From Rhodohalobacter sp. 614A (lineage in GTDB: Bacteria > Bacteroidota > Rhodothermia > Balneolales > Balneolaceae), in NCBI RefSeq assembly GCF_021462415.1, contig NZ_JAKEDS010000001.1, forward strand, positions 1,708,273 to 1,772,272: DNA of 64,000 bases. The letters run 5' to 3'. Under the pieces are notes generated by a model. It saw only the letters and a program-made list of their open reading frames with translations, searched no databases and had not been told where the DNA came from. Both the position numbers and the translations under genes were made by a program. Below, in pieces: positions 19,199 through 26,270 of this stretch. How positions within the stretch are numbered: the first letter of the stretch is position 1; every line of letters begins with the position of its first letter.

Positions 19199-19918
19199 AT
19201 GACATTCAAAAGCTTCCGGTTACTCGGATTTTGCCTACTTCTTACCGGTTGCGCCTACTTTTCCAAAAGTACAGAGATAGAAGAAGTGCCCGCTTCAGTA
19301 TATCCGTTGCCAGATCCTGAAATTGCTGAAAAACTGGATTCCTATCGTGATTTTTTAAATGAATTGATGGGACAAAAAGTGGCAACCGTAGAAGATACAC
19401 TCAAATTTGGCAAGCCTGAAGGATCTTTGAGCAATATTGTGGCTGATGCCCTTCGTTTCCAGGCTGCTGCTGAATTACGAAGTTTTGTACATGTTGGCGT
19501 TATCGGGGAAGGTTCTTTTCAGCTTTTTCTGCTTCCCGGGGACCTTACAGTAGGCGATGTGTATGAATTTATGCCCTATGATAATCACCTTGTGATATTA
19601 ACCATGAAAGGATCTCGTTTAATGGAACTCATTGAACAAGTAGCTGAAGTGGGAGGCGCGCCCATAAGTGGTGTACGTTTCAGGATTGACGAAGATGGGA
19701 ATCCAAATGGGGTTTTGGTAAATGCAGAAGTATTAGACCCGGACCGGAAATATCTTGTTGCTACCAGTAGTTGGTCGGCAAACGGTGGAGATCAATTCCC
19801 AGCATTGTGGAATATCTCCGACCGAATGGATTTGGAAGTATCCATTCAGGATTTGTATATAGAATATTTCCGAAACCAGGTAGTGTTAACTACCTCAACC
19901 GATGGGCGAATCCGGTAA
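19199..19918 (+). CDS. lipoprotein: stand-alone 5'-nucleotidase C-terminal domain
   Basis: A 239-residue lipoprotein (lipobox LLTGC, Cys near 18) made only of the C-terminal, substrate-binding domain of UshA/YfkN-type 5'-nucleotidases. Visible family motifs are PEGSLSNIVADALR, GDLTVGDVYEFMPYDNHLV and the terminal SSWSANGGDQFPAL, which normally shapes the nucleoside pocket. The metal-binding phosphatase domain is missing from this polypeptide and is encoded by the next gene, whose ATG overlaps this stop (TAATG). Together the two have the content of one ~540-residue enzyme, but in reversed order. Inference: they form a periplasmic or outer-membrane heterodimer. Confidence 0.82.
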   Translation: MTFKSFRLLGFCLLLTGCAYFSKSTEIEEVPASVYPLPDPEIAEKLDSYRDFLNELMGQKVATVEDTLKFGKPEGSLSNIVADALRFQAAAELRSFVHVGVIGEGSFQLFLLPGDLTVGDVYEFMPYDNHLVILTMKGSRLMELIEQVAEVGGAPISGVRFRIDEDGNPNGVLVNAEVLDPDRKYLVATSSWSANGGDQFPALWNISDRMDLEVSIQDLYIEYFRNQVVLTTSTDGRIR

Positions 19919-20847
19919 TGATTTCAAGAAAAGAGTTTATAAAACAGTCGGCATATTTGGCCGCCGGTTCCACCTGGCTTGCAGGGTGGGGAAGTCTGGC
20001 TGTAAATGATTTTGAAGGCGCATCAATTACAATTCTGTATACAAATGATACACATTCCCGCCTGGACCCTTTTCCATCCAATGCCAGGGAATTTTCGGGG
20101 CTTGGCGGAATCGCAAAACGGTCATCTCTGGTTAATAAAATTCGTGCAGAAGAGGATCATGTTCTTTTGCTGGATGCCGGGGATGTATTTCAGGGAACGC
20201 CTTGGTTTGATGTGTATGGTGGAAAAGTAGATTTCGAGCTCATGAGTGAAATGGGGTACGATGCGATGGCTATTGGGAATCATGAGTTCGATCTCGGGCT
20301 TGAAGGATTTGCTGAAGCAGCTCAACTGGCCAATTTTCCTTTTTTGGCCGCCAATTATTCCACACTCAATACTCCCATCCATCCATTCGTGAAACGTCAG
20401 ATCATCAAAGAATTTGATGGGTTTAAAATTGGAATATTTGGACTGGGAATTCAATTCGATGGAGTGATTGACCGCTCTCTCCATGAGGGGGTGAGATATC
20501 GTGATCCATCTATCATTTCAAAGAGAGTTGTAGAAAGTCTTAAAAATTTTCATCAATGTGATTATGTAATTTGCCTGAGTCATCTTGGATATCAGTATGA
20601 AGGAAACAGAATTGATGATGTTAAGCTTGCCGGTTCAGTATCCGGCATAGACCTGATCATCGGTGGGCATACCCACACTTTTTTAGAGGAACCTGTACCG
20701 GTAGAAAATCCTGATGGATCAAACACGCTCATCACCCAAATGGGACATGGTGGAGTACACTTGGGAAGAATAGATCTGAAGGTTTCTGATGAATCGGAAA
20801 AGCCGACCATCACCAGTCAATATTATACAATTGGAGAAGAAATATAG
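19918..20847 (+). CDS. exported metallophosphoesterase: stand-alone 5'-nucleotidase N-terminal domain
   Basis: A 309-residue protein starting at ATG 19918, which shares a base with the preceding stop; a longer in-frame start at 19771 lies inside the previous gene and is rejected. All calcineurin-type metal motifs are present: LYTNDTHSR, LLDAGDVFQGTPW, IGNHEFDLG, LSHLG and GGHTHTF. The N-terminus MISRKEFIKQSAYLAAGST looks like a twin-arginine-type signal (Arg-Lys variant), so it may be exported folded with its metals. It lacks the C-terminal nucleotide-binding domain, which the upstream gene supplies. Substrates could be nucleotides or nucleotide sugars. Confidence 0.85.
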   Translation: MISRKEFIKQSAYLAAGSTWLAGWGSLAVNDFEGASITILYTNDTHSRLDPFPSNAREFSGLGGIAKRSSLVNKIRAEEDHVLLLDAGDVFQGTPWFDVYGGKVDFELMSEMGYDAMAIGNHEFDLGLEGFAEAAQLANFPFLAANYSTLNTPIHPFVKRQIIKEFDGFKIGIFGLGIQFDGVIDRSLHEGVRYRDPSIISKRVVESLKNFHQCDYVICLSHLGYQYEGNRIDDVKLAGSVSGIDLIIGGHTHTFLEEPVPVENPDGSNTLITQMGHGGVHLGRIDLKVSDESEKPTITSQYYTIGEEI

Positions 20848-20862: not shown

Positions 20863-21276
20863 CTAAATCTTTCTGGTTACTATTTCAACAACTCCATTAC
20901 CGCCACGAACCCCGTATATGGCAGCTTCATTCCCTTTCAGAACACGTACATAATCAATATCCCGAGGATTAAGCATTCGGTTTGCTTCTGAATAGGAGTG
21001 ACCAATAGCATGACCATCAATTACAAAGAGCGGAGTGGTTCCGGAGGTGAAGGAATTTACACCCCGAATGTTAACAGAAGCATTATTTCCAGAACCATTA
21101 ACATTTACCCCGGGCACTTGCCGTAAGTAATCAGCAAGGCTTTGGTAATAATTCATATCGTCGGAAATACTGCCTTCAGGTCTTCCGCTTTCTTCAGATA
21201 CGGAAGTTCCCACTGATGAACAACCGGCAAACATGAGAGAAAGAGTGATAATCGATAGAAATAAAATTTGTTTCAT
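20863..21276 (-). CDS. plug-only TonB-receptor-like lipoprotein, copy 1
   Basis: A 137-residue lipoprotein from ATG 21276 (a start at 21309 adds 11 residues before the signal peptide and is less likely). The lipobox is MFAGC, Cys19. The mature protein equals the plug of SusC/RagA-type receptors: YLRQVPGVNVNGSG, VNIRGVNSF, PLFVIDGHAIG, IDYVRVLKGNEAAIYGVRGG, NGVVEIVTRKI. There is no TonB box and no barrel, and the frame closes with a stop immediately after the plug, so it is not a truncated pseudogene of a long receptor. Two close paralogues lie upstream on the same strand. Function is unknown. Confidence 0.85.
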   Translation of the reverse strand: MKQILFLSIITLSLMFAGCSSVGTSVSEESGRPEGSISDDMNYYQSLADYLRQVPGVNVNGSGNNASVNIRGVNSFTSGTTPLFVIDGHAIGHSYSEANRMLNPRDIDYVRVLKGNEAAIYGVRGGNGVVEIVTRKI

Positions 21277-21377
21277 TTTATTTGACAATTTTGGTTGATT
21301 GATTTCCATGATGTAAATACCATAGACTTATACGCCAATTTCCTTCAACTAAAATAATAGACAGATACCTCAACTGG

Positions 21378-21791
21378 CTATGATTTTTTAGTAGCGATCT
21401 CAATGACTCCGTTGGCTCCACGTACCCCGTAAATGGCGGCATCGGGTCCCTTTAAAACGCGAACGTAATCAATATACTTCGGGTCTAATAATCTATTTGC
21501 CTGGGAATATGAATTTCCCACAGCCTGACCATCAACCACAAAAAGAGGAGAGTTGCCTGAACTAAAAGAACTAATTCCACGAATAGTTACGTAGGCATTA
21601 TCTCCTGAACCCCTTACACTTACTCCGGGAACCTGGCGCAGATAATCGGCAAGGCTTCTGTAATAATCTTTATCATCGGTGATACTGCCTTCCGGTCTTC
21701 CATTCTCATCAGCTACCGTATTGCTTACTGAGCCACACCCCGCAAATAGAAGTGATAAAGAAAAGAAAGATAGCAGTAGTATTTGTCTCAT
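21378..21791 (-). CDS. plug-only TonB-receptor-like lipoprotein, copy 2
   Basis: A 137-residue paralogue with the same plan: signal peptide, lipobox LFAGC (Cys19), then a plug domain with YLRQVPGVSVRGSG, VTIRGISSF, PLFVVDGQAVG and YVRVLKGPDAAIYGVRG. It ends in EIATKKS, where the other two end in EIVTRKI. A GGAGG sequence (21796-21800 on the minus strand) four bases before the ATG supports the start. It is separated by 101 bases from copy 1 and 59 bases from copy 3. Most differences are conservative, which indicates selection on the protein. Confidence 0.85.
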   Translation of the reverse strand: MRQILLLSFFSLSLLFAGCGSVSNTVADENGRPEGSITDDKDYYRSLADYLRQVPGVSVRGSGDNAYVTIRGISSFSSGNSPLFVVDGQAVGNSYSQANRLLDPKYIDYVRVLKGPDAAIYGVRGANGVIEIATKKS

Positions 21792-21795
21792 GTTT

Positions 21796-21800
21796 CCTCC
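21796..21800 (-). promoter_or_regulatory. ribosome binding site of plug lipoprotein copy 2
   Basis: GGAGG followed by AAAC and the ATG. It is one of few strong Shine-Dalgarno sequences in the window and fixes the short start of copy 2. Confidence 0.6.
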
Positions 21801-21850
21801 GCTCTGGGAATGACTTTATCATCGAACTGCTCAGAATAGTATTTTTCAGT

Positions 21851-22264
21851 TTAGATTTTCCTGGTAACAATTTCAACAACTCCGTTGCCTCCTCTTACTC
21901 CGTAAATGGCTGCATCGGGCCCTTTTAAAACGCGTACATAATCAATATACCTCGGGTCAACCATTTTGTTAGCCTCATTATACGAGTAGCCAATGGCATT
22001 TCCATCGATAACAAAAAGTGGTGTAATTGGCGAATACCGGGAATCAAATGAGTTGTATCCCCTGATTGTTACTACACCTGAATTAATATTTACACCCGGC
22101 ACTTTCTGCAGATAATCAGCCAGGCTGGTAAAATAGTCATTATCATCTGAAACACTTCCCTCGGGTCTGTCATTATTTTGTCCTGCAACGGAAGACCCAA
22201 CAGATGAACAACCAGCAACCAACAGTGAGAGTGAGATGAGTGAAAGAAGGATAAAAGTTTTCAT
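21851..22264 (-). CDS. plug-only TonB-receptor-like lipoprotein, copy 3
   Basis: A 137-residue paralogue and the first of the three in transcription order. Lipobox LVAGC (Cys19). The plug core is YLQKVPGVNINSG, VVTIRGYNSF, PLFVIDGNAIG, YVRVLKGPDAAIYGVRGGNG and VEIVTRKI. It differs from the others by a shorter loop after VNINSG and a longer one (DSRYSPIT) before PLFVIDG. The stops of all three genes are clean and no receptor gene is adjacent, so these are independent small lipoproteins and not receptor fragments. Confidence 0.85.
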   Translation of the reverse strand: MKTFILLSLISLSLLVAGCSSVGSSVAGQNNDRPEGSVSDDNDYFTSLADYLQKVPGVNINSGVVTIRGYNSFDSRYSPITPLFVIDGNAIGYSYNEANKMVDPRYIDYVRVLKGPDAAIYGVRGGNGVVEIVTRKI

Positions 22265-22479: not shown

Positions 22480-23565
22480 TTAATACAGAACTGCCGTGCT
22501 GATTTGAACAGGATGAATCCAGCCGTGAGTATCTTCAATATTTCCGTACTGAATACCTGTAATAGCATCAAACATTTTTTTGGCAAACGGACCTATTTTC
22601 TCGCGGTCCAATGTTACTGTTTCTCCTTTATGATGGATCAAACCAACCGGTGAAATAACAGCCGCAGTTCCGGCTCCAAAGATTTCTTTGAGTGAACCAT
22701 TTTTGTGAGCCTCAAAAACTTCATCGATAGAGATTCTTCGCTCTTCAACATTTAAGTTCCAGTCTTTTGCAAGAGAAATAACAGATCGGCGTGTGACACC
22801 GGGCAAAACAGTTCCAGCCAATTGGGGAGTTATCAATGTATCGCCAATCAGGAAGAAGATATTCATTGTACCAACTTCTTCAACGTATTTGTGTTCTTTA
22901 GCATCCAGCCAGAGCACCTGTGTAAATCCCTCTTGTTGTGCTTTCCTGGCAGGGAGAAAACTTCCTCCGTAATTACCGGCAGATTTGGCTTCGCCTGTTC
23001 CACCTTTAGCAGCACGAACATACTCATCAGATGTTGTTAAAGAAACCGGGTTGAAGCCTTCTTTGTAGTAAGCAGCAACAGGACTTGTGATAATATAAAA
23101 TCGGTACTCTTTTGAAACAGTTGCCGCAATATATTCTTCGGATGCAAACATAAACGGGCGGATATAGAGTGAGTGCCCGTGCGTTTCAGGAACCCACTTG
23201 TAATCAAGCTGCAGGAGTTTTTCCAGAGCTTCCATAAATACTGATTCTTCAATTTCCGGCATGCACAACCTTTTGGCAGAATTGTTCAGGCGTTTGTGAT
23301 GATCGGTCGGCCGGAAAAGGTGGATGGTATCCTCATCAGCATAATATGCCTTCATGCCTTCAAAAATCGCCTGGCCATAATGAAGTGCCATCAGAGACGG
23401 ATCAAATGTAATAGGTCCGTACGGCTTAATTTCAGCTTCCACCCACTCGCCATCGCGGTAGACCATTTCAAACATATGGTCTGAGAATACACGACCGAAC
23501 TCAAGGTTATTGAAGTCTAATTCTGAAATTCTGCTTTGATCTGTCTGGGTTATCTTTATATTCAT
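22480..23565 (-). CDS. ilvE: branched-chain amino acid aminotransferase
   Basis: Cytoplasmic PLP enzyme for the last step of Val, Leu and Ile synthesis and the first step of their breakdown. The 361 residues and motifs fit the BCAT2/fold-type IV group: YGQAIFEGMKAYY (about 63-75), RPFMFASEE, the PLP Lys at about 194 in GEAKSAGNYGGS, and VEEVGTMNIFF (about 228-238). The late GAGTAAVISPVG motif that shapes the phosphate pocket is intact. No ilv/leu biosynthetic genes are adjacent. It is divergent from the M24 peptidase gene. Confidence 0.95.
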   Translation of the reverse strand: MNIKITQTDQSRISELDFNNLEFGRVFSDHMFEMVYRDGEWVEAEIKPYGPITFDPSLMALHYGQAIFEGMKAYYADEDTIHLFRPTDHHKRLNNSAKRLCMPEIEESVFMEALEKLLQLDYKWVPETHGHSLYIRPFMFASEEYIAATVSKEYRFYIITSPVAAYYKEGFNPVSLTTSDEYVRAAKGGTGEAKSAGNYGGSFLPARKAQQEGFTQVLWLDAKEHKYVEEVGTMNIFFLIGDTLITPQLAGTVLPGVTRRSVISLAKDWNLNVEERRISIDEVFEAHKNGSLKEIFGAGTAAVISPVGLIHHKGETVTLDREKIGPFAKKMFDAITGIQYGNIEDTHGWIHPVQISTAVLY

Positions 23566-25208: not shown

Positions 25209-26270
25209 TCAGTTGTTTCGTCTGTTATTACCTCTGCTACTGCTGCGACTTTTACTTTTTTTGTCAGCCCTCTCCCTTTTGACGGTGCTCCGACTTTTTT
25301 CGCGATTATTTTCTTTTCTTACGGTTTGTTTGGAATTTCCTCTATCCCGACTGTTTGGGCGAATAGATTCTGACCGACGGCTTTCGGTTCTTTTAACGTT
25401 CGAGTTTCTGTTATTTCTCACTCCTTGATCTTTATCCATCGTGGATCTGGATCGTGATCGAATGTTAACCTGTCTCGTTGGCGTTTCTCTAACGTTCGAA
25501 TTTTCAATAGTTCGACTTCGGCGTGAATTTTGTACTGTTCGGGATGGAGTATAATTTACCTGTGGTTGCTGCTTCACCCTTTGTTTTGCCTGTTTTCTGT
25601 CAATCCTTGAAACCTTTTCTATTCTGCCAGTGCGATATCCGTTTCGGCCTCTTTGTTTTTGATAGTTGTTTCGTTCTTTATAAGCTTCTTGTCTAAAGCG
25701 ATTCAATCGTATTTCATAATCTCTTTCGATTCGAACAAAATAGCGGTAGTCCCGATCATTGTATTGATGGCGGTGTTTGTGCCAATGTCTGTATTTTATA
25801 AAGAGTGGATGAGAGTGTCGTTCCCAGTGGCGTGGTAATCGTTGTTCCGGTACCTGTAAAAAAGCAAGGCTTAGTCCACCAAGCCAAATTTGTACGGAGT
25901 AGTAGGGAGAGTGGTAATCATCATATGCAAATCGATGCCGGTAATACCAATCATATCCTCTTAAACGGATCATTAAATCGCGATCTCTGTAACCATCTCT
26001 GTATCCGGCCTCATAAAGATCGATATCCCACACCATGTCATAAAACCGGTAATCGTTATAGTAGGCATCATTAACGCCATCCATATAACCTTTAAGATAG
26101 GCCGTATCATATGGATCCTGGTAGAAACCAGATGAATTGCTCAGTTCAAGTTGAAAGTGGATAAATGGCCGGAAGGATTGATAGCTAAATTCTATATAGG
26201 CAGATTGTGCGGTAATCGGTGCACTCAAAACTCCAATCAACAGTATCGTAGCACATAGTCTTTTAATCAT
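25209..26270 (-). CDS. exported, very basic low-complexity protein
   Basis: A 353-residue protein with a clear signal peptide (MIKRLCATILLIGVLSAPIT, cut after AQS). Residues ~30-210 are rich in Tyr, Asp, Arg and His, with YRDGYRDRD and HWHKHRHQYNDRDYRYF. The last ~150 residues are almost wholly Arg, Lys, Ser, Asn, Gln and Thr (for example SRSSSRGNNRRNN at the end), predicted disordered and strongly positive. No family is recognised. Such tails can bind polyanions such as extracellular DNA, nucleic acid or acidic polysaccharide, but that is inference. It stands alone between the peptidase and lectin-like genes. Confidence 0.65.
   Translation of the reverse strand: MIKRLCATILLIGVLSAPITAQSAYIEFSYQSFRPFIHFQLELSNSSGFYQDPYDTAYLKGYMDGVNDAYYNDYRFYDMVWDIDLYEAGYRDGYRDRDLMIRLRGYDWYYRHRFAYDDYHSPYYSVQIWLGGLSLAFLQVPEQRLPRHWERHSHPLFIKYRHWHKHRHQYNDRDYRYFVRIERDYEIRLNRFRQEAYKERNNYQKQRGRNGYRTGRIEKVSRIDRKQAKQRVKQQPQVNYTPSRTVQNSRRSRTIENSNVRETPTRQVNIRSRSRSTMDKDQGVRNNRNSNVKRTESRRSESIRPNSRDRGNSKQTVRKENNREKSRSTVKRERADKKSKSRSSSRGNNRRNN

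Follow-up and report, generated by a model that had tools for sequence, protein, structure and literature searches.

A conserved family of stand-alone SusC-type plug proteins with a predicted lipid anchor in Rhodohalobacter and related bacteria

What does the plug of a TonB-dependent receptor do when it is made without a barrel? The question arises at positions 20863-22264 of a 64,000-nucleotide stretch of DNA from Rhodohalobacter sp. 614A (contig NZ_JAKEDS010000001.1, positions 1,708,273 to 1,772,272; hereafter the window), where three tandem genes on the minus strand each encode a 137-aa lipoprotein whose C-terminal part is a SusC-type plug lacking a barrel. The open reading frames of copy 1 (20863..21276; 148 aa if an upstream in-frame ATG serves as alternative start), copy 2 (21378..21791) and copy 3 (21851..22264), their signal peptides, in which Cys19 lies in a lipobox in all three copies, and their Pfam Plug matches agree, and thereby bear out an earlier note on this DNA that had described three tandem plug lipoproteins of 137 residues without a barrel. 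Copies 2 and 3 share 69% and 71% identity with copy 1, and all three are predicted to be lipid-anchored. Plug family PF07715 was matched, again on the minus strand, by residues 44-129 of copy 1 (20890..21147; E 8e-17; 62.1 bits), residues 44-129 of copy 2 (21405..21662; E 7e-18; 65.5 bits) and residues 45-129 of copy 3 (21878..22132; E 1.7e-12; 48.2 bits), in each case above the curated cut-off of 23.9, and only 8 residues are left between the end of the match and the C-terminus. The top NCBIfam match of copy 1 was SusC/RagA TIGR04056 (E 2.9e-21); the scores of the three copies (75.6, 75.2 and 50.7 bits) are far under the whole-protein cut-off of 368.25, and the C-terminal barrel of TIGR04056 is missing, as the chains stop directly after the plug. 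The earlier description of a complete SusC-like plug holds as to the type of plug and is slightly too strong as to completeness, since the copies cover positions 22-107 of the 107 profile positions, short of full length, and the N-terminal piece of an ordinary plug is absent. The genome has 63 Plug matches in total, and these three alone lie in frames of <340 aa.

An AlphaFold2 model of copy 1 (mean pLDDT 79.6, pTM 0.66) was compared with known structures. Foldseek returned 16 matches with E ≤0.001, all of them TonB-dependent receptors with two SusC-type ones on top, and VIA-align gave as best match 6z9a, a SusC (Z 9.2, rmsd 2.7, 98 aligned), in addition to 6zlt (Z 8.2, rmsd 2.7, 102 aligned). 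The model thus predicts a receptor-plug fold for copy 1.

In order to see how far such proteins extend, the search for stand-alone lipidated plugs that the earlier note had proposed was carried out, and it found them in 19 of 22 same-genus genomes and, in a class-wide sample of 195 genomes, in at least 59, counted by matches to frames of <300 aa. A profile built from the three window copies, with matches taken at E 1e-20 in 58 genomes including the window's own, gave 48 matches in 23 of the 58 genomes, all in open frames of 135-194 aa; an alignment of 33 members has 16 invariant columns, Cys19 among them. The same-genus set (22 genomes, ≥85% complete) contains 47 stand-alone plugs, a count that includes one partial copy (G007, 85-aa frame) and leaves out two matches in longer frames. 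In three of the 22 genomes, whose Plug matches number 26, 26 and 32, no stand-alone plug was found, and the function is therefore dispensable. In a second, wider sample at least 52 of 392 genomes were matched, many of the matches being receptors, and outside the class this sample contained at least three verified lipidated plugs (L227, L236, L237) from other families of the phylum. A scan of named contigs yielded 80 loci, mostly receptors, with lipidated stand-alone plugs in four (L081, L083, L085 and L086), all uncultured Bacteroidales records, and two non-lipid barrel-less proteins in one (L120). Among 50 distinct profile-matching ORFs of <420 aa (loci L216-L265), a lipobox is present in 47; two of the other three consist of an extra N-terminal domain and a plug, and one is a 401-aa receptor piece. 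Two types can be distinguished, a short one as in the window and a long one with a nearly full plug (Pfam positions 3-107 in L242, 7-107 in a second long-type relative); a model of the long type from L242 has a pLDDT of 75.4 and a pTM of 0.60. The same architecture in so many genomes is not due to chance, and in these bacteria the free plugs make up a protein family that has been conserved. No description of stand-alone or barrel-less lipidated plugs was found in the open literature, most subscription journals lying outside the search. The domain itself is known, and what appears to be new is its free, lipid-anchored form, as a family that is under selection and separate from receptor plugs in the tree.

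The genes occupy a stable place. In the window they are flanked on the 5' side by a class IV aminotransferase gene (22480..23565, minus strand; Pfam Aminotran_4) and on the 3' side by the metallophosphoesterase half of a split 5'-nucleotidase (19771..20847, plus strand; Pfam Metallophos), both of which are used here as locus markers and are no part of a proposed mechanism. Twenty regions were compared, 11 of them from the same genus. Among these 11, the aminotransferase gene is the neighbour of the plug gene(s) in 10, and 7 have the 5'-nucleotidase gene on the opposite side, in some cases with at least one intervening gene. The slot holds one copy in five regions, two in three, and three in two as well as in the window. 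The three-copy model was without a match in nine same-genus genomes, and in the five of these inspected at the slot no plug ORF down to 30 aa and no remnant was found; aminotransferase and nucleotidase lie side by side in four, and one unrelated 462-aa gene separates them in G021. Two genomes without a plug gene at the slot (G003 and G021) encode a more distantly related stand-alone plug at another site. Copy numbers of 1-3 together with empty slots characterize an accessory gene at a stable slot that was tandemly amplified in some lineages. As minor observations in this part of the window, the 5'-nucleotidase is encoded by two genes (19199-20847), the C-terminal domain with a lipobox-like start coming first and the phosphoesterase second, and positions 25209-26270 encode a 353-aa protein with a signal-like start and a C-terminal half very rich in Arg, Ser and Asn.

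Selection was estimated by the Nei-Gojobori method for 32 plug genes, and none of the 496 pairs had a pN as large as its pS. For the only four pairs in which pS is <0.5, dN/dS came to 0.144, 0.099, 0.092 and 0.140, and the remaining pairs, including the window triplet (pS 0.76-0.79), are at or near synonymous saturation. Comparable pairs of the neighbouring genes gave 0.037-0.056 for the aminotransferase (four pairs) and 0.085 for the nucleotidase (one pair), two further comparisons being saturated. The plugs are thus under purifying selection (0.09-0.14 in the four unsaturated pairs), and the possibility raised in the earlier note that dN/dS would give no sign of it did not survive.

In a tree of 112 plug domains (95 columns), we combined 52 lipidated stand-alone plugs (84 distinct ones thinned at 75% identity), four two-domain barrel-less plugs, the best 30 of the 60 other Plug matches of this genome (receptors) and long ORFs of named contigs, for which one locus in three between L082 and L160 was taken (27 loci, 26 usable). 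Three of the 26 long ORFs were placed among the stand-alone plugs. Their plug lies near the C-terminus, followed by 89-103 residues, and they have MG2 matches (one above the Pfam cut-off, two below), so that they must be barrel-less too; the other 23 continue for 464-864 residues past the plug. With these three relabelled as barrel-less by architecture after the tree had been seen, on which the counts depend, a single branch separates 59 barrel-less from 53 receptor plugs, with an ultrafast bootstrap of 99 that is not fully settled and an SH-aLRT of 83.8, in a tree that has few columns for its number of rows and no known root. Profiles derived from these lipoproteins had been used to collect the barrel-less rows, so other barrel-less plugs may sit elsewhere, and a relaxed constraint common to barrel-less plugs could draw them together.

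The lipobox with its Cys leads us to infer that the stand-alone plugs (lipoplugs in the following) are lipidated, and the residues behind this Cys bear on the side to which the anchor faces. Asp or Glu at positions +2/+3 was found in none of 48 plugs (0/32 and 0/16 in two sets; for L053 the earlier Cys was scored, and the later one is equally without acidic +2/+3) but in 27 of 29 SusD proteins of this genome (30 loci, one not parsed), and an acidic residue at +2 to +6 in 21 of 48 plugs (18/32 and 3/16) versus 29 of 29 SusD. In other Bacteroidota, an acidic export signal (LES) is reported to send lipoproteins to the cell surface (PMC5080379). As the plugs, unlike SusD, have no acidic +2/+3, the sequence suggests that their anchor faces the periplasm, provided that this signal, so far established only outside this class, applies here too. 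The linker between Cys and plug has a median length of 29.5 residues, 28% Ser+Thr and a net charge of -2. Taken together, the lipoplugs are almost certainly outer-membrane lipoproteins composed of a lipobox signal peptide, a flexible Ser/Thr-rich linker some 30 residues long and a SusC-type plug that stands free, and belong to a lineage of barrel-less plugs.

Whether a lipoplug could still sit in a barrel was judged from the residues by which a plug is anchored there. E. coli FhuA was aligned with the plugs of 30 receptors from this genome and with 84 distinct lipoplugs, which placed FhuA R93 at lipoplug R71 and FhuA R133 at lipoplug K114. The R71 position is basic in all 84 lipoplugs (82 Arg, 2 Lys), and its equivalent in the receptors is Arg in 23 of 30, with three gapped. 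At K114, Lys or Arg occurs in 65 of 84 lipoplugs versus 30 of 30 receptors (p 0.003). Both basic residues are present in all three window copies and invariant in 20 chosen long-type members. An R71 that is always basic and a K114 that is relaxed in some are compatible with barrel docking and do not prove it. Entropy profiles of lipoplugs and receptor plugs correlate with 0.77 over 94 positions. Two residues in copy 1 numbering, Leu47 and residue 53 (the latter Arg in 63 of 84), are conserved more strongly in lipoplugs than in receptor plugs and may form a family-specific contact.

A search for receptor partners was made at three levels. Across the 22 genomes, plug copy number is not correlated with receptor number (Spearman 0.13, p 0.57) and rises weakly with genome size (Spearman 0.45, p 0.036). 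In the window's genome, 40 of the 42 PF00593 barrel matches share a frame with a Plug match. The other two lie in tandem frames of 1110 and 1068 aa outside the window (L185:4088-10972) without a Pfam Plug match; both are Oar-like proteins, and by eye their N-terminal part may hold a divergent plug. A 783-aa barrel frame, also outside the window (L181:2037-5319; G000:C1, about 21.0-24.3 kb) and beside a SusD-like gene, was considered as a plug-less partner and rejected, as it overlaps an adjoining plug frame of 333 aa (341 aa in the genome-wide Plug scan, where it is the shortest frame after the three copies) and the two are one SusC-type receptor gene split by a frameshift or sequencing error. 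A convincing plug-less barrel partner was therefore not found in this genome by the PF00593 search, which misses some barrels. Finally, 16 regions around distant members were compared, of which 13 count (L242, where the plug gene was not located, and the non-lipid two-domain type L240/L241 being left out), and in these no constant neighbour gene was found, whether receptor, TonB, ExbBD or other. Receptor genes occur within about 9 kb of the lipoplug in four of the 13 (L165, L174, L179, L244), and downstream on the same strand only in L174, where SusC and SusD follow as a pair at a distance of two genes, and in L179. In L179 (9238-14292) the lipidated plug directly precedes three genes whose products, judged by eye, are a response regulator, a histidine kinase and a receptor-like protein of 800 aa, and a similar trio without a plug is found in the window's genome (L182).

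Our best guess, held tentatively, is that the lipoplug is a tethered plug whose targets are receptor barrels, on which it acts in trans. From an anchor in the outer membrane's inner leaflet, it would dock from the periplasmic side on SusC-type TonB-dependent receptor barrels, either at an emptied or opening barrel mouth or against the resident plug, and once docked would modulate or seal the barrel, with an effect on transport. The probable periplasm-facing anchor and the conserved equivalent of R93 fit the gating or blocking suggested in the earlier note, whereas the relaxed second anchoring residue and the missing correlation with receptor number argue against gating or blocking in a simple form, and the fusion of related barrel-less plugs to MG2-type proteins makes docking on barrels less obvious there. 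Docking has further support in the SusC and SusD pair near the lipoplug of L174 and a precedent in phage T5 Llp, a small lipoprotein that controls a receptor from the periplasm (see below); against it count the failure to find a convincing plug-less barrel in this genome, the inconstant neighbourhood of distant members and the dispensability in three same-genus genomes. According to a review, the isolated FepA plug behaved as unfolded, so that a free plug under selection plausibly has a partner. To the SusC/RagA receptor plug (PF07715; TIGR04056) the lipoplugs are alike in sequence, predicted fold, motifs and most of the constraint pattern, but they lack a barrel, have a predicted lipid anchor of their own and fall on the other side of the tree branch, and the window type in addition misses the N-terminal plug part. 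A plug supplied apart from its barrel has a parallel in E. coli FhuA, whose cork and barrel are reported to have been provided as two proteins (PMC2615193), there as an engineered split of a single receptor.

Almost as likely is a binding role away from receptor barrels, in which the plug fold was freed long ago and reused for periplasmic protein or ligand binding. The barrel-less side of the 99/83.8 branch includes MG2-type and carboxypeptidase-regulatory-domain proteins, which resemble the lipoplugs in lacking a barrel but are large or have two domains, the two-domain ones found being without lipobox; the relaxed K114, the inconstant receptor neighbourhood and the absent receptor-number correlation point in the same direction. 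A constraint that tracks receptor plugs this closely (0.77 over 94 positions) and a basic R93-equivalent in 84 of 84 speak against this reading.

A more specific form of docking in trans, which we regard as unlikely, would have the lipoplugs serve as spare plugs encoded by the host at the periplasmic face, where, by capping SusC-type barrels or going into them, they would close channels that phages, bacteriocins or failed transport had opened or hijacked. Phage T5 Llp is described as a small periplasmic-side outer-membrane lipoprotein that binds the plug of the TonB-dependent receptor FhuA and jams it (PMC9586334). It serves as an analogue only, being encoded by the phage and not described there as a plug, and no homology is claimed. 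If spare plugging were true, the lipoplugs would be a cell-made counterpart of Llp made from the receptor's own plug, and tandem copies would broaden the range of barrels served.

Less probable still is an assembly or quality-control factor, a free plug that fills or tests new SusC-type barrels or helps at the BAM machinery. The probable periplasmic orientation and the 60 other Plug matches of the genome, nearly all in receptor-length frames that have to be assembled, would suit it; on the other side, a term search for 'plug' in the main text of a Bacteroidota BAM structure paper gave no occurrence (PMC12578637). The three of 22 same-genus genomes in which none was found nevertheless have their 26, 26 and 32 Plug matches. 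A role as TonB decoy or TonB recruiter, in which the lipoplug would bind TonB or compete for it, we consider very unlikely: some long-type members keep a VGYG-like start of the kind that presumably marks the vicinity of the TonB box in SusC, but the window proteins, matched by Pfam only from position 22, are without this part. Decaying or chance-translated remnants of receptor genes, of which one, split into two overlapping frames, does occur in this genome, can hardly explain the family, as the same slot is occupied in relatives, empty sites are free of remnants, the genes are under purifying selection, the lipidation Cys is invariant and the plug tree separates them from receptor plugs, which also disposes of the receptor fragments that the earlier note had considered.

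It is an old question whether the plug of a TonB-dependent receptor moves within the barrel or leaves it during transport, and a natural family of selected, free and tethered plugs offers an experimental system for a plug without its own barrel. If the lipoplugs act on receptors, they would add an extra layer of control over glycan and iron uptake. Some of the proteins annotated only by their plug domain have no barrel and form a group of their own, so a receptor should not be called from nothing more than a plug match.

Other barrel-less plug proteins were encountered in addition to the lipoplugs. MG2-type (macroglobulin-like) proteins of 806-1232 aa have their plug on the C-terminal side (L082:2914-6612, L136:1049-3469 and L088:2944-6525). 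Two-domain plug proteins of about 220-245 aa with neither barrel nor lipobox are encoded at L120 (4768-6267), L240 and L241, and at L120 two genes in tandem each combine a carboxypeptidase-regulatory-like domain with a plug.
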